NCBI GenBank assembly: GCA_024655905.1
Contig: JANLFP010000007.1
Span: 124,001-188,000, forward strand
DNA: 64,000 bases
Reading direction: 5' to 3'
Origin: Tepidanaerobacteraceae bacterium
Lineage (GTDB): Bacteria > Bacillota > Thermosediminibacteria > Thermosediminibacterales > Tepidanaerobacteraceae
The notes beneath the pieces were generated by a model. That model was not told where the DNA came from. It did not search any database and was given only the letters and a program-made list of their open reading frames with translations. A program made the position numbers and the translations under genes. Below, piece by piece: positions 24,904 to 32,216 of the stretch. Within the stretch, counting starts at the first letter, position 1; each line of letters begins with the position of its first letter.

Positions 24904-24979
24904 ATTATGTAGAATAAATATATAGTATAGCACATTTAAACAAATATTATATATCATATGTCGTGACATTCTACATAAT
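24904..24979 (+). promoter_or_regulatory. Perfect 12-bp inverted repeat before the FBP aldolase/phosphatase gene
   Basis: ATTATGTAGAAT at 24904-24915 and its exact reverse complement ATTCTACATAAT at 24968-24979 enclose an AT-rich promoter-like stretch. The second copy ends one base before the ribosome site GGGAGG. It may be a paired operator or, if transcribed, a stem holding the ribosome site. Confidence 0.55.
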
Positions 24980-24993
24980 TGGGAGGTATTTCG

Positions 24994-26082
24994 ATGAGCG
25001 AAAAAATCACATTGTCGGTAATCAAGGCCGACATCGGAGGATTTGTGGGCCACAGCAGCGTCCATCCGGAACTTCTGCAGGAAGCCGAGGAGTCTCTGGC
25101 GAAAAAAGGCGAAGGTTTGCTGGAAGACTTCAAAGTAACGAGCGTGGGCGACGACATCAACCTTATCATGACCCACAGGCAGGGCGCGGACGACGAAAGC
25201 ATACACAAGCTGGCATGGGACACCTTCCTCGCGTGCACTCAAATTGCGAGGAAGCTGAAGCTGTACGGAGCCGGGCAGGATTTGCTCACGGATGCATTTT
25301 CCGGAAATATTAAAGGCATGGGGCCCGGAGTGGCGGAGATGGAATTTGAGGAGCGGCCCAGCGAACCCGTTATAGTTTTCATGGCCGACAAGACAGAGCC
25401 CGGAGCTTGGAATCTTCCGCTTTATAAAATGTTTGCAGACCCGTTCAATACCATTGGCCTGGTAATAGATCCCAAAATGCATGAAGGTTTTGTGTTTGAG
25501 ATTCTCGACCTGATTGAAAATAAGAAAGTGACTTTTTCCTGTCCGGAGGAACTATACGATATGCTGGTGTTTCTGGGGGCGGCCAACAGGTTCGCGGTCA
25601 GGGCCGTTTATCGCAAAGACGGCGAAATAGCTGCGGCGTCGACCACTCAGAGGATGAATCTCATGGCGGGCAGGTATGTGGGAAAGGACGATCCCGTGCT
25701 TTTGGTGCGCTGCCAGAACGGATTGCCGGCTGTGGGGGAAGCCCTGGAACCCTTCGCCAATCCGCACCTGGTGGCGGGCTGGATGCGCGGTTCTCATTTT
25801 GGGCCGATGGTCCCCGTCTCTCAGAAAGAATCGACTCCCACGCGCTTTGACGGGCCTCCTAGGGTCATCGCGCTGGGATTCCAGCTTGCCGGGGGAAAGC
25901 TTATCGGTCCTCAGGACTTTTTTGCCGATATGGCTTACGACAGGGCAAGACAGAAAGCTCTGGAAATAGCCGATTATCTGCGCAGCATGGGTCCGTTCGA
26001 ACCCCACAGGCTTCCCCTGGATGAAATGGAATACACCACCATGCCTCAGGTTATGGAAAGGTTGAAAGACAGGTTCAAATGA
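24994..26082 (+). CDS. Bifunctional fructose-1,6-bisphosphate aldolase/phosphatase (archaeal type)
   Basis: Single enzyme that condenses DHAP with glyceraldehyde 3-phosphate and dephosphorylates the product to fructose 6-phosphate, making gluconeogenesis one-way. It is known from archaea and deep-branching or thermophilic bacteria. 362 residues. N-terminal SVIKADIGGFVGHSSVHPE and SVGDDINLIMTH carry metal ligands; 'G-R-Y-V-G-K-D-D-P' supplies the Tyr (228) and Schiff-base Lys (231) pair spaced as in characterised enzymes; MRGSHFGPMVPVS is also typical. ATG 24994 follows GGGAGG. Monocistronic, with a terminator at 26098. Confidence 0.95.
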   Translation: MSEKITLSVIKADIGGFVGHSSVHPELLQEAEESLAKKGEGLLEDFKVTSVGDDINLIMTHRQGADDESIHKLAWDTFLACTQIARKLKLYGAGQDLLTDAFSGNIKGMGPGVAEMEFEERPSEPVIVFMADKTEPGAWNLPLYKMFADPFNTIGLVIDPKMHEGFVFEILDLIENKKVTFSCPEELYDMLVFLGAANRFAVRAVYRKDGEIAAASTTQRMNLMAGRYVGKDDPVLLVRCQNGLPAVGEALEPFANPHLVAGWMRGSHFGPMVPVSQKESTPTRFDGPPRVIALGFQLAGGKLIGPQDFFADMAYDRARQKALEIADYLRSMGPFEPHRLPLDEMEYTTMPQVMERLKDRFK

Positions 26083-26097
26083 AGCCAAACTGAATCC

Positions 26098-26121
26098 GGC
26101 AGGAGCGCGCCTCCTGCCTTT
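26098..26121 (+). terminator. Terminator after the FBP aldolase/phosphatase gene
   Basis: GGCAGGAG (26098-26105), loop CGCGC, CTCCTGCC (26111-26118), then TTTG. Confidence 0.65.
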
Positions 26122-26232
26122 GCAATATTTGAAAACAAAAACAATATGCTTAATCGATGAAAGCATATTTATAAAAAATATTTTATAAATCTTTCACAAA
26201 AAGAAGGAATTTTATATTTATTGTAGAAATAA

Positions 26233-26400
26233 TATAATATTCAAACTGGGTAACCCAGTATACCGACAGGGCTACTCAGTACACTATACAAAAAAGGGGG
26301 GAGGAAAAAATGCGTTCATGCGTGACGGGAGACGGGTCCGTATGAACGGCTGAAAAATTCGTTGCCGCCTCGAACGCAATGTGATTGAACTAACAATCAA
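26233..26400 (+). promoter_or_regulatory. Long structured leader of the NSS transporter gene
   Basis: A TATAAT at 26233-26238 would start transcription near the perfect hairpin ACTGGGT-A-ACCCAGT (26245-26259). Downstream, TGCGTTC (26311-26317) can pair with GAACGCA (26372-26378), enclosing further G-rich and C-rich pairing segments; an 11-codon ORF with a strong ribosome site lies inside. It resembles no riboswitch class that I can identify (not glycine, SAM-I, T-box or c-di-GMP). A cis-regulatory RNA is possible. Confidence 0.4.
26310..26345 (+). CDS. Possible 11-codon leader peptide
   Basis: ATG 26310 stands 5 bases after an unusually strong ribosome site, GGGGGGAGG (26296-26304), and is followed by ten sense codons and TGA (26343-26345); product MRSCVTGDGSV. 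Its first codons form one arm of the 7-bp stem that spans the leader, so ribosome movement would open the stem. Function is inferred only from layout. Confidence 0.3.
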   Translation: MRSCVTGDGSV

Positions 26401-26422
26401 TTAAAGCAGAGGAGGTTAATGT

Positions 26423-27925
26423 ATGGCCGAAAAACGCGAACAATGGGGCAGCCGTTTGGGATTTATAGCTGCATCCCTCGGAATGGCTGTGGGCACCGGC
26501 AATATCTGGAGATTTCCGCGGGTGGCGGGAACAAATGACGGTGGAGCTTTCCTGGTAGCATATCTGGTGGCAAACCTCGCATGGGCGGTGCCGCTTATGA
26601 TGATGGAACTTTCCATGGGCAAAACCACCAGATTTGGGACCATTGGAGCGTTCAGGAACTGGCTTGGCCGCGAAAAGACCTGGATGGGAGCCTGGGTAGG
26701 ATTTACATGTCTGGGCATAATGTTTTACTATTCTGTTATCCTCGGTTGGGCTCTCAGGTATTTCACCTTTGCCGTAAGCGGTGCCATCCACAAGGGGATG
26801 GATTCAGAAGCGTTATGGAATGGATTTATTAATACTCCTTCGCAGACCATAATGTTCCATCTAATTGCGATGTTGATCGGAGGATATATCGTATACCGCG
26901 GCGTCCAGGGAGGGCTCGAACTCGCAAATAAGATAATGATCCCGACATTGTTTGTCTGCCTGATAATATCCGCAGTATGGGCCATATCCAAACCGGGCGC
27001 CATAGTGGGATTGGATTACCTCTTCGTACCCAAGTGGGGTTCTCTGGGCAACCCCAATGTATGGCTGAATGCCTTTACACAATCTGCATGGTCTACGGGG
27101 GCTGGCTGGGCGCTGATGCTGACATATGCCGTCTATATGAAGGAAAATGAGGATATAGGCGTCAACAGCTTTATGATAGTTCTGGGCGACGCATCGGCGG
27201 CAATCCTTGCAGCCATGTCGGTGCTGCCCACGGTTTTCGCCCTTTCTCCTTCCCCCGATAAAGCGGTTGAAGCTTTGAAAGCCGGAAATACCGGTTTGAC
27301 ATTCATATATCTGGCAAAATTATTCCCGACCATGCCGGGCGGAATGCTTGTCGCTTCGCTTTTCTTCCTCGCGCTGGCTCTTGCGGCGCTTTCATCGCTG
27401 CTGCCTATGATTGAAGTTGGCGTGCGCAATTTCATGGATGCTGGCTTTGACAGGAAGAAAGCTACTCTGATTATTTGCATAGGCGGATTTTTGCTCGGTG
27501 TTCCTTCGGCTTATAAAGTAGACTTCCTCAACAATCAGGATATGGTATGGGGCGTAGGACTCCTTATCAGCGGTCTGATGTTCGCATACGCCGCATATAA
27601 GTATGGCATAGACCGCGTCAGAAATGAAATCATAAATAAAACCAGCGACATATATGTCGGCAAGTGGTGGAACTATTGCATCAGCCTATTCCCCGTGATG
27701 TTTGCTTTCATATTCGGATGGTGGATCTGGCAGGCGATTACATGGTATCCAAATACGTGGTGGAATCCTATGGAGGTATACAGCCCCGGTACGATGGTTG
27801 TTCAATGGGTGATATCTGCCATTATTTGGATTGCCCTGAACAACTGGCTTGCTAATTGGATTAAAGGCACCTCTCCCCAACTTTTGGCCATGAATGCAGG
27901 TGCAAGCATTAAGGGGGGAAAATAA
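26423..27925 (+). CDS. Sodium-dependent NSS-family amino acid transporter (MetP-like)
   Basis: Sodium-coupled symporter of the neurotransmitter:sodium family, 500 residues with about 12 membrane spans. The Na/substrate site is visible in span 1, LGMAVGTGNIWRFPRVAGTN, with more family blocks in W-A-V-P-L-M-M-M-E-L and in span 6-8. The tiny gene directly after it encodes a MetS-like subunit, as in the Corynebacterium methionine/alanine importer MetPS, so methionine or a small neutral amino acid is the likely substrate (inference). ATG 26423 follows AGGAGG. A long leader upstream suggests regulation. Confidence 0.93.
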   Translation: MAEKREQWGSRLGFIAASLGMAVGTGNIWRFPRVAGTNDGGAFLVAYLVANLAWAVPLMMMELSMGKTTRFGTIGAFRNWLGREKTWMGAWVGFTCLGIMFYYSVILGWALRYFTFAVSGAIHKGMDSEALWNGFINTPSQTIMFHLIAMLIGGYIVYRGVQGGLELANKIMIPTLFVCLIISAVWAISKPGAIVGLDYLFVPKWGSLGNPNVWLNAFTQSAWSTGAGWALMLTYAVYMKENEDIGVNSFMIVLGDASAAILAAMSVLPTVFALSPSPDKAVEALKAGNTGLTFIYLAKLFPTMPGGMLVASLFFLALALAALSSLLPMIEVGVRNFMDAGFDRKKATLIICIGGFLLGVPSAYKVDFLNNQDMVWGVGLLISGLMFAYAAYKYGIDRVRNEIINKTSDIYVGKWWNYCISLFPVMFAFIFGWWIWQAITWYPNTWWNPMEVYSPGTMVVQWVISAIIWIALNNWLANWIKGTSPQLLAMNAGASIKGGK

Positions 27926-28039
27926 ATGGCAGCTCAAACAATAATATGGATGTTAATAATGCTGGTAATATATTTTGGAGGATTTGCGTATTTTGCAAAT
28001 ATTGCCGCCTCGAAGGAAAAGACCAAGTCGCAGGAATAA
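27926..28039 (+). CDS. metS: MetS-like NSS transporter small subunit (37 residues)
   Basis: Very short gene whose ATG (27926) touches the stop of the transporter gene and whose ribosome site AGGGGGG (27912-27918) lies inside it. The product is one membrane helix (about residues 5-26, TIIWMLIMLVIYFGGFAYF) with a short charged tail ending K-T-K-S-Q-E. This matches the small subunit that the MetP-type NSS transporters need for activity. It is followed by a terminator, so the pair forms a complete operon. Confidence 0.82.
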   Translation: MAAQTIIWMLIMLVIYFGGFAYFANIAASKEKTKSQE

Positions 28040-28062
28040 AAATAAACAGTGAGAATTTCATG

Positions 28063-28098
28063 GCATGGGACTTTCGAAAGAAAGTCCCTGCTTTTTTG
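28063..28098 (+). terminator. Terminator after the NSS transporter operon
   Basis: GGGACTTT (28067-28074) pairs with AAAGTCCC (28081-28088), extended by outer pairs around one bulge, followed by CTTTTTT. Confidence 0.85.
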
Positions 28099-28180
28099 GA
28101 TTTAAAGGAAAAAGGTCGCAAGCTGTCGAATATATTGCATCAGCCTGAATCTGATGAACAATCTCGATAAGGGTGATTTT

Positions 28181-28942
28181 ATGAATCCGGAATCGGTCAA
28201 TATTATCGATAGCGGTACAGGCATCGCATTTCAAAAGGAGTTGATGAGCAGAGCCACGGCTGTTGTGGATTTAAAGGGTGCAAGAGGGGTGCGCTTCTGC
28301 GGCGAATTAAAGGATTTTATGGGTTTGAATCAAAAGCTGCAGCCCCTAAAACCCGGAGTATCCTTTCTGGGGACCGGAGATTTTCACCACCTTTGCCTTC
28401 ATTTTCTCAATAAAATGCATGAAGAGCCGATTTTGGTGCTTTTCGACCATCATTCGGACATGATGGAGCCCCTGCCGGGCACCATAAGCTGCGGGTCCTG
28501 GGTAAGAGCGGCTTTGAATGGCAAAATGGTGAAAAAATGCATAATGGTGGGGCAAAATATGAAGGATGAAGCCTTCTCTGGTTCGAATGCCGACAACAGG
28601 GTGATATTTTTCCCGGAAAACATCCCGCACGAAAAAAAGGTATCGGGAGTAATGAAAGAACTTTTAAAACACGACATACCCGTTTATGTTAGCATAGACA
28701 AGGATGTACTTGCTTGGGGACAGGCATATACCAACTGGGACCACGGGTCTTTGAAACTGGAAGAACTCATCGATTTTCTGAAAATCATAAAAAAGGCCAA
28801 AAGCATCATCGGCGCCGATATATGCGGTGAATGGCCCGTTTTGCAGGATGAGATTTTTCACACCCCGGAGGACAAGAGAAAAGTACGGGCAAACCAGACG
28901 GCCAATCTTGCAATACTGGATATTCTATTAAAGGTAGTGTAA
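28181..28942 (+). CDS. Arginase/agmatinase-fold (ureohydrolase) family protein
   Basis: 253-residue protein of the arginase superfamily, which uses two Mn ions to hydrolyse guanidino compounds. Metal motifs: GTGDFHHL (about 64-71), LFDHHSD (88-93) and SIDKDVL (171-177). The last is normally S-x-D-x-D-x-x-D-P; the final Asp-Pro is missing here, and the protein is shorter than true arginases, so substrate is uncertain. It could act on agmatine, formiminoglutamate or a related compound. ATG 28181 follows AAGGGTG; the in-frame ATG 28154 has no ribosome site. It stands alone. Confidence 0.82.
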   Translation: MNPESVNIIDSGTGIAFQKELMSRATAVVDLKGARGVRFCGELKDFMGLNQKLQPLKPGVSFLGTGDFHHLCLHFLNKMHEEPILVLFDHHSDMMEPLPGTISCGSWVRAALNGKMVKKCIMVGQNMKDEAFSGSNADNRVIFFPENIPHEKKVSGVMKELLKHDIPVYVSIDKDVLAWGQAYTNWDHGSLKLEELIDFLKIIKKAKSIIGADICGEWPVLQDEIFHTPEDKRKVRANQTANLAILDILLKVV

Positions 28943-29041
28943 TTTTTTGCAGAAAGTAGTAAAATATGCATATATATTTCTATTCACCGGCAGATGATGT
29001 TATAATATCAGTTATAATATAATTTCAAGGAGATGATTTCA

Positions 29042-29845
29042 ATGGATTTTAGAGCCGATATCGGAGTATTTGGCGGTTCGGGGTTTTATTCTTTTCTGGA
29101 TGACGTTAGAGAAATAACTGTAGAAACCCCGTATGGCCCGCCCAGCGAAAGAATAGCCCTCGCGAAAATAGGCGGAAAGTCCGTGGCATTTCTGCCAAGG
29201 CACGGGAAGCACCATACCATTCCGCCCCACATGATAAACTACCGTGCCAATGTGTATGCCATGAAGCAACTGGGGGTAACACGGATTCTGGGACCATGCG
29301 CATCGGGAAGCCTGCAGCCCCACGTAAAACCCGGAGACTTTGTGATATGCGACCAGTTTGTAAACCGCACCTGGGGACGCAAAGATACCTTTTACGATGG
29401 TCCCATAACCACGCATATCGGCGGTGCGGAGCCGTACTGCCCCGAGCTGCGCAGGATAGCCATCGAGACGGCAAAAGAAAAAGGCCTGCCCGTGCACGAA
29501 AAAGGTACAGTTGTAGTTGTCCAGGGACCGCGGTTTTCCACCAGAGCTGAAAGCCGGGAATTTTCCAGCCATGGCTGGGAAGTCATAAATATGACCCAGT
29601 ATCCCGAAGCGGTCCTCGCGCGGGAAATGGAGATATGCTATGCCAATATAACACTTGTGACGGACTACGATGTGGGCCTTGAAGATAACCCTGAAATAGA
29701 GCCGGTGAGCCACGAGATGGTGCTGAAAGTTTTTAACGAAAACATAGCCAAACTGAAGGAATTGCTCTATGACATAATAATGCGCATGCCTGAGAAAAGA
29801 GGCTGCAAGTGCGGCGAGGAACTGAAAAGCGCAAGGATGACATAA
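29042..29845 (+). CDS. mtnP: S-methyl-5'-thioadenosine phosphorylase
   Basis: Phosphorolytic cleavage of methylthioadenosine (and probably 5'-deoxyadenosine) to adenine and the pentose 1-phosphate. Purine nucleoside phosphorylase family 2; 267 residues. Signature blocks: IGVFGGSGFYSFLDD, FLPRHGKHHTIPPHMINYRA, GPCASGSL, VINMTQYPEAVLARE and 'V-T-D-Y-D-V-G'. ATG 29042 follows AAGGAGATG. The class II aldolase gene follows after about 45 bases, and SAM synthetase lies 2.4 kb downstream, pointing to SAM by-product salvage. Confidence 0.93.
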   Translation: MDFRADIGVFGGSGFYSFLDDVREITVETPYGPPSERIALAKIGGKSVAFLPRHGKHHTIPPHMINYRANVYAMKQLGVTRILGPCASGSLQPHVKPGDFVICDQFVNRTWGRKDTFYDGPITTHIGGAEPYCPELRRIAIETAKEKGLPVHEKGTVVVVQGPRFSTRAESREFSSHGWEVINMTQYPEAVLAREMEICYANITLVTDYDVGLEDNPEIEPVSHEMVLKVFNENIAKLKELLYDIIMRMPEKRGCKCGEELKSARMT

Positions 29846-29891
29846 AAATATGATTTGAGTAAAATTATTGCAACGGAACAGGGTGAATTTC

Positions 29892-30545
29892 ATGCTGCTT
29901 AAACTAAAACAAAAAGTAGTAGAATACGGAGAAAAGATTGTGAAAGAGGGACTGGTGGTGGCCACCTGGGGAAACCTGAGTGCCCGGGAGGAAAATGAGG
30001 ACTTATTTGTAATTACGCCCAGCGGGATGAATTATGCCGATCTGGAGCCTGAAGACATCGTCGCAGTGGACCTTGATGGGAAACCCGTTGCTTCGGGCAG
30101 GAAACCTTCGGTAGAAACGCCGGTGCATGCGGCCATTTACAGGGCAAGGCCGGATGTAAAAGCGGTGATTCATACTCATAGCATCAATGCCAGTGCATGT
30201 GCCGCGTCCAGAACGGAGATACCATGCATCATGGAAGACATGTCGTCCATGGTGGGTGGGCCTGTAAAAGTGGCAAAATATGCTCCTACCGGCACCCGGG
30301 AGCTTGCAGAAAATGTGCTGGAGGCTCTTGAAGACAGAAATGCCGTTATTCTAGCAAATCATGGAGTGGTGACGGTGGGAAGGTGTCTGGAAGAAGCCTT
30401 CAAACTGAGCTTGGTGGTGGAAAAGACTGCAGAGATATTTATTAAATCTAAGATGCTGGGGCAGGTTTATTCCCTGGATCTGAGCGAAGTGTGCCATTTG
30501 AAGGACTTTTACATTCGATGCTACGGTCAGGCGAACAGAGAATAG
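29892..30545 (+). CDS. Class II (FucA/AraD-type) aldolase, candidate methylthioribulose-1-P aldolase
   Basis: Zinc aldolase of the fuculose-phosphate aldolase/adducin family, 217 residues. Conserved: GLVVATWGNLSAR, ITPSGMNYADL, E-T-P-V-H-A-A-I-Y, the zinc His pair in VIHTHSINA and the later ANHGVVTVG His. FucA would be the default name, but no fucose genes are near. Next to mtnP, it fits the aldolase (Ald2) of the DHAP shunt, which splits 5-methylthioribulose 1-phosphate to DHAP and methylthioacetaldehyde. The isomerase mtnA needed between them is not in this window. Assignment to that pathway is inferred from context. Confidence 0.85.
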   Translation: MLLKLKQKVVEYGEKIVKEGLVVATWGNLSAREENEDLFVITPSGMNYADLEPEDIVAVDLDGKPVASGRKPSVETPVHAAIYRARPDVKAVIHTHSINASACAASRTEIPCIMEDMSSMVGGPVKVAKYAPTGTRELAENVLEALEDRNAVILANHGVVTVGRCLEEAFKLSLVVEKTAEIFIKSKMLGQVYSLDLSEVCHLKDFYIRCYGQANRE

Positions 30546-30632
30546 ACAAAGAATTAATGCGGCATTGCATAATAAAAACAATTGTAATATAATAGACAAA
30601 GCGGCATTTTGCTGAAAGGGAAGGAGTGGCAC

Positions 30633-32216
30633 ATGCGAAAGAAGACCCCTGAAAAAGCTTCTAAAGTCGATTACCGGCTTTTATATAAGAGGAAAATAGT
30701 GGACTTTCTGGAATCTTTAAAGGATAAAGAATATACCGTATGGCAGATGAATGAATCCATGAAAAAACTTTTCAGTATGGGGGAACAGGTGGTGCAGGTT
30801 TGCCTTTCCAAACTGCGGGAAAACGACGAGAGCCTGGCCCCTGTGGTCTGTTATGCGCTTGAATATATAGACAGCTACGATGTTGTGCCGCCGCTTATGG
30901 ATATACTCATCATGCCGCACATATCGGATAAGGTCAAGGCCAGGATTCTTACGGTGCTTTCCCATTACGGAGTGGATGCGGGAGAACTGCCTCTGGACTT
31001 GATAATGAAGGACTTTGACGGTGTGGCTTCCGAATCCCTCGCTGAGATGCTGGAGGACATTGAAAAAGATTACTTCCTTATATTATATATACTTGAAGAT
31101 ATGGAAGAGTTTCCACCTGATATGAAGCTGGCCTATGTAAGGGATATTGGGGAACTGAAGGATGAGAAGGCCATAGGGCTTCTGGAAATTATCGCGACTA
31201 TGGATGATGTTCCGCTGGCACAGGAAGCCGTTAAGGCTCTGGGAAAGATAAAATCCGGAAAGTCCCTTTTTGCTCTAAACAAATTATCGAATCGAATAAA
31301 TGATGACAGGGTGAAGAAAATTATCGACAAAGAGATCCAGAGGTTGAAATTCAGCGGAGTGCAGATGGAGATAACGCCGGCTCCGGTGAAACTTCTTGAA
31401 CCGGTTAAAATAATAATATCCTCTATTGATGGTCTCGGAAGCCGGGCATTATGGATTGCATGGAAAAACCCTTTAAAGCCCCGGAAACTCATTTCAATGA
31501 ACCTGCTGCTTAATGTGCAATCGGGAATTAAAGACTGCTGGGGGGTGCCGCAGATAACCGCTCGCGAATTCAACGCTTCAGTCAAAGAACTTTCCAGCAC
31601 TACTCTCGTAGCGGAATGCGATATGAATTATGCTGCTGCAATGATTAGAGATGCCCTTTTGCACAATCGGGAAAATGGAACGGAAATACCATACCAGTTT
31701 TTTTTCTGGAAACATCTCCTGGAACAGAACTATAACTTGAATCCGGAAGCTTATAAACCTGCTTTCGAAGGCTACGACATAAATGACATTATGAACAATG
31801 AGGAATACTTTAAAAAAACCTTTGACCTGTTCAACTACCGGATTTTTGATGACTGGTTCATTGCGGAGCCCAGGGTTTACGACTACGCAGAAGAGAATAA
31901 ATCAAAAAGAGGCTATATCGTAAAGAAAATGACGAGGCAGAAGGCTGAAAAGTTTTTTTCGAAATTTACGCAGGAACTCATTGAGCCTCAGATTGACATG
32001 ATAAGCAGAATGCTTGAGCTTTCGGCGGATTTTCTCGTTCGGACGGGTCAGAAGGAGCTGGTTAAAATTGTTCTTTCCGCGCTTTTTCATATTAACATAA
32101 GCCCCCTTTATTATCATCCGTTTATACAAAGAATGATTATCGAGAGTATCAGGATTGCCCTGAACAACATGAAAAACGGGTTTGACATGAGGGTGAATCC
32201 GGATGCTTTCGAATGA
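30633..32216 (+). CDS. HEAT-repeat-like protein of unknown function
   Basis: 527-residue cytoplasmic protein I cannot assign. The first ~250 residues look like alpha-helical HEAT/PBS-lyase-type repeats: recurrent 'D-V-V-P-P-L-M-D-I-L', 'K-A-I-G-L-L-E-I-I-A' and Q-E-A-V-K-A-L-G-K-I-K-S units. The C-terminal half has no familiar motif and ends without membrane segments. ATG 30633 follows AAGGGAAGGAG. It sits between the salvage aldolase and metK, in the same direction with short gaps. A scaffold role is typical of such repeats, but nothing here shows a partner. Confidence 0.75.
   Translation: MRKKTPEKASKVDYRLLYKRKIVDFLESLKDKEYTVWQMNESMKKLFSMGEQVVQVCLSKLRENDESLAPVVCYALEYIDSYDVVPPLMDILIMPHISDKVKARILTVLSHYGVDAGELPLDLIMKDFDGVASESLAEMLEDIEKDYFLILYILEDMEEFPPDMKLAYVRDIGELKDEKAIGLLEIIATMDDVPLAQEAVKALGKIKSGKSLFALNKLSNRINDDRVKKIIDKEIQRLKFSGVQMEITPAPVKLLEPVKIIISSIDGLGSRALWIAWKNPLKPRKLISMNLLLNVQSGIKDCWGVPQITAREFNASVKELSSTTLVAECDMNYAAAMIRDALLHNRENGTEIPYQFFFWKHLLEQNYNLNPEAYKPAFEGYDINDIMNNEEYFKKTFDLFNYRIFDDWFIAEPRVYDYAEENKSKRGYIVKKMTRQKAEKFFSKFTQELIEPQIDMISRMLELSADFLVRTGQKELVKIVLSALFHINISPLYYHPFIQRMIIESIRIALNNMKNGFDMRVNPDAFE

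Follow-up and report, generated by a model that had tools for sequence, protein, structure and literature searches.

The 340 bases that separate a fructose-1,6-bisphosphate aldolase/phosphatase gene (24979-26082) from an NSS-family transporter gene (26423-27925) in the window (the whole 64,000-nucleotide stretch of DNA that was analysed) probably control an amino-acid transporter gene in two layers, with a DNA operator followed by a leader RNA. The first layer, control of the transporter by a GntR-type regulator acting at operators behind the promoter, is well supported by comparison between genomes and can be regarded as very likely. For the second layer, in which the leader RNA 26296-26416 would affect translation, the chances are about even; constraint and base pairing point to it. 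The elements of the first layer are the following.

26205..26231, plus strand: promoter of the AGGAATTT-N10-GTAGAAATA type, with AGGAATTT at 26205 and GTAGAAATA at 26223
26211..26238, plus strand: TTTATA-N16-TATAAT, an overlapping sigma-70-like alternative promoter, 10/12 consensus match
26245..26259: candidate operator 1, the perfect palindrome ACTGGGTAACCCAGT, score 24.9 with a matrix of gntR sites
26266..26280: candidate operator 2, the imperfect copy ACAGGGCTACTCAGT, score 14.2, 21 bp from operator 1
26423..27925, plus strand: NSS-family transporter (PF00209; Pfam E 2.8e-55; NCBIfam NF037979; best solved relative by sequence 4us3)

The AGGAATTT-N10-GTAGAAATA promoter is presumably sigma-H-like. 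The promoter stretch (26196-26243) has 47 of 48 bases in common (98%) with G005, a genome from a sister genus with a transporter 84% identical to that of the window, and a comparable AGGA...GAA layout stands 5' of the operator sites at gntR and at other NSS genes. A related, stricter pattern, of which the window promoter itself is not an exact match, occurs 12 times in 4 genomes versus 2 for the reversed control, and many secondary matches to the leader query in genomes of the order cover the promoter stretch only; these data suggest a much-used sigma factor with an AGGA...GAA signature in the order. The overlapping TTTATA-N16-TATAAT arrangement was observed once, compared with 1.3 expected from shuffling. 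A transcript start near 26236-26246 is plausible, because promoter-like sequence lies immediately upstream.

The palindrome ACTGGGTAACCCAGT had been described in a sequence-only reading of this DNA as a perfect hairpin with which a predicted transcript would open. The palindrome is present as described, but it matches a GntR-type operator common to the regulator's own promoter and is most likely a DNA operator for a GntR-type repressor rather than an RNA hairpin. A search of nine genomes for ACYGGGTWACCCAGT gave only one further copy at up to one mismatch in the window's own genome (G000), at G000:C34:19175-19189. This copy is at the start of a gene of the GntR family, as is one in G001; the copies at the gntR start of G000 and G001 are one-mismatch copies of operator 1, and G005 carries an exact-pattern copy. 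Between G000 and G005, operator 1 is 93% and operator 2 87% identical. The two operators share 14/20 bases at offset 21 in G000 and 16/20 in G005, the other offsets from 18 to 24 giving merely 3-5/20 identities. When two mismatches are allowed, the pattern on its own shows no enrichment in G000 (7+5 places versus 7+6 for the reversed control), although it does in G005 (10+10 versus 2+5). The 12 further two-mismatch places that were examined (the 6 remaining in G000, 4 in G005 and 2 in G009) lie in open frames of at least 118 codons (9), in 82-codon frames (2) or between genes (1). The two exact operator 15-mers do not occur in the searchable portions of the literature consulted; an inner 11-mer does occur there in published papers.

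The regulator gene (L080:10457-11155) encodes a protein with a GntR domain (PF00392, E 4.9e-20) and an FCD domain (PF07729, E 2.1e-20). The protein is closest to LldR/NanR/PdhR-type NCBIfam models, with scores far below their cut-offs, and has no named orthologue. This gntR gene (G000:C34) heads a gene run on one strand (L080:6977-11155) whose members encode a 2Fe-2S protein, an FAD/NAD oxidoreductase, a 4Fe-4S protein, a BFD/sarcosine-oxidase A3-domain protein and a DAO-family flavoprotein, the domains found being Fer2_4, Pyr_redox_2, Fer4, SO_alpha_A3 and DAO. The best solved relative of the flavoprotein is 1y56_B (E 9e-94), which is labelled sarcosine oxidase and which we take to be the L-proline dehydrogenase complex of Pyrococcus horikoshii. 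The operon appears to encode an amino/imino-acid dehydrogenase complex of a proline-dehydrogenase/sarcosine-oxidase-like kind. A structure of the P. horikoshii complex is cited in the available part of PMC8704557, which deals with archaeal dye-linked L-proline dehydrogenase complexes. The likeness of the operon to these lies in its DAO-family subunit, which matches 1y56_B, whereas the other functions are split here among several small Fe-S and FAD proteins.

Relatives of the regulator amount to 16 matches in 14 of 41 genomes, and 10 of them show at least 62% identity. All ten of these orthologues have the 15-bp site directly behind an AGGA...GAA promoter, the sites of G015, G016, G017 and G020 being one common variant, ACTGGATGACCAAGT. 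At the six distant GntR matches (34-41% identity), no such site was found by eye, and these were left out of the symmetrised matrix, which was made from six distinct gntR sites. The matrix was applied to the 400 bases upstream of 31 NSS genes, excluding L028 (the second fragment of the L021 gene) and L037 (whose contig starts inside the gene). The matrix test is not blind, as the palindrome guided the choice of the training sites, which was made by eye, and the cut-off of 14 was fixed once the scores were known. Five of the 31 upstream regions score at least 14, those of G000 and G005 (24.9 and 14.2 in each), G009 (22.1), G014 (18.6) and G022 (14.4), and the next-best NSS gene scores 7.9. For each of the five, 0 of 300 base-shuffled copies reached the best score. 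All five genomes encode the GntR, the version of G022 being 40% identical. The second-best scores are -5.9 at the NSS gene of G014 and 6.7, at an overlapping position, in G022.

The NSS genes of G013, G018, G019 and G021 have no site, and the regulator has no match at 1e-30 in these genomes. Six of the ten gntR-bearing genomes carry no site at an NSS gene (G002, G015, G016, G017, G020 and G001, the last being counted with no NSS match at 1e-60). G069 has a 42% identical GntR gene directly 5' of an NSS gene at which the matrix finds no site. Over 232,548 positions from 12 sources (11 loci and the window), 10 scores of at least 14 were obtained, all at gntR or NSS promoters, and the only such positions in the window are 26245 and 26266. 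The start of the site is 14-22 bp from the -10 GAA in the 9 of 15 cases that could be measured, and the other 6 are similar by eye. Two places inside long open frames (L113 and L117) score 16.7 and 18.4, so that the specificity is good, not perfect.

One more place in G000, at G000:C2:18049 (L111:520-700), has the sequence ACTGAGTAACCCAGA, scores 16.0 and lies behind an AGGA...GAA promoter, 5' of a ferredoxin-like gene; it may be a third operator target. A GCGGCAG...CTGCCGC hairpin with a T-run is visible by eye in the same region and was not reported by the terminator scan, which covered loops of up to 8.

The palindromes might instead act in the message, as a 5'-terminal RNA hairpin serving mRNA stability, and not as an operator. 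As RNA, 26240-26285 folds with a z of -3.9 (0/200 shuffles); in the predicted fold, the two copies of the palindrome pair with each other to give a longer hairpin. The operator centres change jointly between G000 and G005, A and T becoming T and A, which keeps the RNA pair, and a long hairpin is by eye possible in G009 too. However, the gntR promoters carry the 15-mer at a similar distance from the -10 with no evident second copy, and G014 and G022 each show a single good copy at the NSS gene; a purely RNA role is considered very unlikely.

The TGG-N5-CCA geometry of the window operator is, we assume, that of FadR/PdhR sites. The regulator resembles those of the FadR subfamily (FCD), such as PdhR, LldR and FadR, by its GntR and FCD domains and by a palindromic site at the promoters of its own gene and of its probable targets. 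It differs from them, besides the missing named orthologue, by the two sites 21 bp apart at the transporter and by the inner boxes, which are variable among members and are TGGG/CCCA in the window. The accessible part of PMC4494728 gives TKGT/ACMA as the boxes of FadR-type sites, usually with 3 nt between GT and AC. The window operator, TGGG-N3-CCCA, fits the TGG/CCA spacing of this type, the inner T/A being replaced by G/C; at gntR, the sites of G014, G015, G016, G017 and G020 contain a TTGGT half.

Taken together, operator control can be pictured as follows. The promoter (26205-26238) would be followed by two 15-bp operators whose centres are 21 bp, about two helical turns, apart. In the absence of ligand, the FadR/FCD-type GntR encoded elsewhere (G000:C34) would occupy both sites and block transcription. 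Release of the regulator, and with it induction, would be brought about by the substrate, which may be proline or an amino acid related to it. Because gntR, with a like site at the same place, heads the dehydrogenase operon, joint repression of transporter and enzyme is probable, as is their induction by this substrate. On the simplest reading, the repressor would couple the uptake and the oxidation of one amino or imino acid. The probable link between an NSS transporter and a proline-dehydrogenase-like complex makes the substrate of the transporter testable. A probable operator and a partial regulon would also become available for an uncharacterised FCD GntR regulator of little-studied bacteria, together with an example of a DNA operator at a transcription start passing for an RNA hairpin. 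Literature on GntR regulators with NSS transporters or proline dehydrogenase contains, in the portions open to search, nothing on this regulon.

Downstream of the operators, the leader carries the following elements.

26296..26304, plus strand: Shine-Dalgarno-like GGGGGGAGG of a small ORF, assigned from the sequence
26310..26345, plus strand: 11-codon ORF MRSCVTGDGSV*, with its ATG at 26310
26312..26350, plus strand: hairpin A, 26312-26326 with 26336-26350, beginning at the start codon and ending shortly after the stop
26311..26378, plus strand: alternative stem B, 26311-26328 with 26359-26378, including the 7-bp stem TGCGTTC/GAACGCA
26410..26415, plus strand: AGGAGG, ribosome site of the transporter, assigned from the sequence; 26412-26416 pairs with 26367-26371 in fold A

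The 11-codon ORF and its strong ribosome site, both pointed out earlier, are borne out. The counterpart in G005 has 12 codons, owing to a 3-nt insertion, encodes the peptide MCHSYGMRDGPA and has a GGGGGG run at the corresponding place before the ORF. The segment 26310-26379 aligns to G005 with 54 of 70 bases identical and 15 gap positions (28/36 in the ORF, 19/26 in the next stretch and 7/8 in the 3' arm of the stem). The adjoining parts give 6/14 (26296-26309) and 16/27 (26380-26406). Compared with identities of 39% at the 4-fold sites of the transporter gene (n 210), 52% at those of the phosphatase gene (n 148) and 38-57% in the flank upstream of the promoter, this indicates that 26310-26379 is under constraint. 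Coding constraint on the small ORF was considered and rejected, because most changes hit the first or second base of a codon. Of the 10 codons aligned behind the start, 7 encode another amino acid in G005, and one third-position change is seen.

By DNA, a clear relative of the leader (26286-26425) is found in 2 of the 22 genomes of the order. A covariance model used with stricter filters on 61 relatives finds the leader in 2, plus one match of E 0.69, and the best match among the 31 NSS loci beyond the two, the transporter leader of G014 (E 0.16), is too weak to use. A strict leader pattern recovers the window itself alone in a phylum sample of 299 genomes, G005 being outside that sample's listing. 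The conservation in relatives that the sequence-only reading would expect for its stems and ORF holds for the constrained segment and for stem B, of which 14 of 15 pairs persist in G005, but not for the peptide, nor beyond these two genomes of the order. The leader RNA can be described as lineage-specific and confined so far to two genera.

The leader 26286-26425 folds better than its shuffles in the window (z -3.2, 1/200); the values for the G005 leader are z -1.7 (11/200) and, for a shorter piece, -0.2. The 7-bp stem that had been proposed does exist as a complementarity of TGCGTTC (26311-26317) to GAACGCA (26372-26378), but in the whole leaders of both G000 and G005 its pair probability is close to 0 and that of hairpin A, which excludes it, close to 1. 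Dinucleotide shuffles of 26290-26422 contain at least one perfect 7-bp match in 18.5% of cases and two, as observed, in 4.5%. Forcing the 7-bp stem, and with it fold B, costs 9.5 and 8.0 kcal/mol relative to fold A in the whole leaders, and A is again favoured in the six lengths of growing transcript that were folded from 26286.

Hairpin A retains 12 of 14 pairs in G005, two being broken and one showing a double change (P 0.14). Stem B, as taken from the constrained fold of the window, keeps 14 of its 15 outer pairs with 3 double compensatory changes, and 20,000 random placements of the substitutions give P 0.002 for both features jointly and P 0.009 when the double changes are taken by themselves, the bare 7-bp stem giving P 0.03; all these P values come from one sequence pair and are uncorrected for the choice of structures. 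The RNAalifold consensus of the G000 and G005 leaders is also stem B. In pieces of G000 that lack the small-ORF ribosome site and end before the main one, stem B is the best fold (0.88 for 26305-26400), and adding either ribosome site restores fold A, in which 26358-26371 of the window has the two ribosome sites as additional partners. For G005, all four pieces tried adopt hairpin A, with a probability of at least 0.98.

The whole leader could be a new riboswitch, in which an exchange between A and B exposes or hides the ribosome site of the transporter. The constraint on 26310-26379 agrees with this, as do the compensatory pairs, of which B has three and A one, the covariation of position 26314 with each of its alternative partners (26347 and 26375), and the closeness of A and B in G000 pieces devoid of ribosome sites. 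Fold B also frees the main ribosome site in G000, where the unpaired probability is 0.40 in A versus 0.72 in B, but the site is almost unaffected in G005 (0.44 versus 0.49); its sequestration as a conserved function was set aside, being weak in G005. A ligand-sensing RNA, as had been suggested, would be expected to keep its structure across many lineages; a clear relative occurs in one sister genus only, the other matches among the relatives and NSS loci being weak. Fold A is the more stable by 8.0-9.5 kcal/mol in whole leaders, and the regulator acting on DNA already explains substrate control. Rfam has no match to the leader at the gathering cut-off, and the six matches at E up to 10 (best E 0.21) are each far below the family cut-off. 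The earlier view that no known RNA class fits is in line with this covariance search; glutamine and downstream-peptide riboswitches and group II intron remnants, which were also considered, were dropped for want of an Rfam match. On balance, a riboswitch appears improbable.

Even less credible, to the point of being scarcely worth entertaining, is transcription attenuation of the classical, ribosome-mediated kind with the 11-codon ORF as leader peptide, the layout to which the leader had also been likened. A short ORF, a strong ribosome site and overlapping alternative stems are indeed present, but the scan of 26083-26500 found no intrinsic terminator (0, with 0.6 expected by shuffling), neither MRSCVTGDGSV nor MCHSYGMRDGPA contains a series of regulatory codons, and the two peptides show no conservation. 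Classical attenuation is therefore unsupported.

A simpler role has a better, though still minor, chance of being the right one: the small ORF and the hairpin would load ribosomes early and protect the long leader from decay, no switching being involved. The G-run before the ORF is kept and the peptide is not, in agreement with such loading, and 6 of 18 NSS leaders contain a small ORF with ribosome site and start codon versus 2.3 expected. This mild enrichment was obtained with our own list of ribosome sites on 18 of the 31 regions, leaving aside genes close behind another gene and the loci of named genomes. However, early loading leaves the pairing constraint in stem B unexplained.

In the two-layer reading, which is preferred here, the leader would work as follows. 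A strongly initiated ORF of 11-12 codons would lie inside the stable hairpin A. After entry at GGGGGGAGG, ribosomes would unfold hairpin A and stop at 26343-26345. With a ribosome on this stop codon, 26311-26327 and about 26361-26378 would be available for stem B. This stem would restrict renewed initiation at the small ORF and keep the main ribosome site open. By opening hairpin A, the ribosomes of the small ORF would keep the transporter ribosome site accessible, with B as the alternative fold when the sites are occupied. In its strictest form, this would be a true A/B switch, in which fold A (1:2, plus 3 with both ribosome sites) is held by the sites and fold B (1:3) frees that of the transporter. 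Such a switch is unlikely; if it were true, the message would sense the ribosome occupancy of its own start sites. Equally doubtful is the combination of both stacked controls, a tandem GntR operator and a leader RNA flipped by its ORF, for which two genera would so far be the examples. Should the leader part prove real, it would add another tiny ORF that controls the translation of a transporter.

The mgtQ small ORF controls the translation of mgtB in Salmonella, as described in the available part of PMC8092293. The leader studied here would resemble it in logic only, with no homology claimed and with a predicted translation of the ORF. According to that part, mgtQ is a very short ORF upstream of a transporter gene and overlaps mutually exclusive stem-loops, one of which masks the ribosome site of that gene; the small ORF and the predicted folds here would give a similar arrangement. 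The site is freed by the 2:3 stem there and would be freed by the 1:3 stem here, and the predicted masking is weak in G005. Similarly, the iraD leader ORF, translationally coupled and under CsrA control, in what could be consulted of PMC5574718, is a short leader ORF upstream of a gene with a sequestered ribosome site, but its stop codon overlaps the start of the gene, whereas stop and start codon are 77 nt apart here.

The transporter gene is followed by two further features.

27926..28039, plus strand: 37-aa single-helix ORF (MAAQTIIWMLIMLVIYFGGFAYFANIAASKEKTKSQE), directly 3' of the transporter gene
28067..28088, plus strand: intrinsic terminator-like hairpin 3' of the transporter unit, 9 pairs then a T-run

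The 37-aa ORF, which we take to be MetS-like from its layout, has no match in Pfam or NCBIfam. The terminator-like hairpin was found once versus 0.2 expected.

In G009, the transporter is 57% identical to that of the window, yet promoter and operator match at 91-92%; transporter and leader may have been replaced there while the control sites stayed. The leader of G009 (L083:6870-7234) is longer and has no clear relation to that of the window. The loci L083 and L086 and the window (24979-32216) have a common gene order: FBP aldolase/phosphatase, NSS transporter, arginase-like protein, MTA phosphorylase, class II aldolase and HEAT-repeat protein, the last being followed in G005 and G009 by a MetK-like protein. 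This shared order looks like a methionine-salvage-like neighbourhood. The upstream regions L011, L024 and L025 belong to a second class of NSS paralogues; the preceding gene ends by eye in a Fis-like helix, and a TTGGCAC...TTGC motif, presumably of the sigma-54-promoter type, is also present. Because of this sigma-54-like motif upstream of the second class, the NSS paralogues are probably under different regulation.
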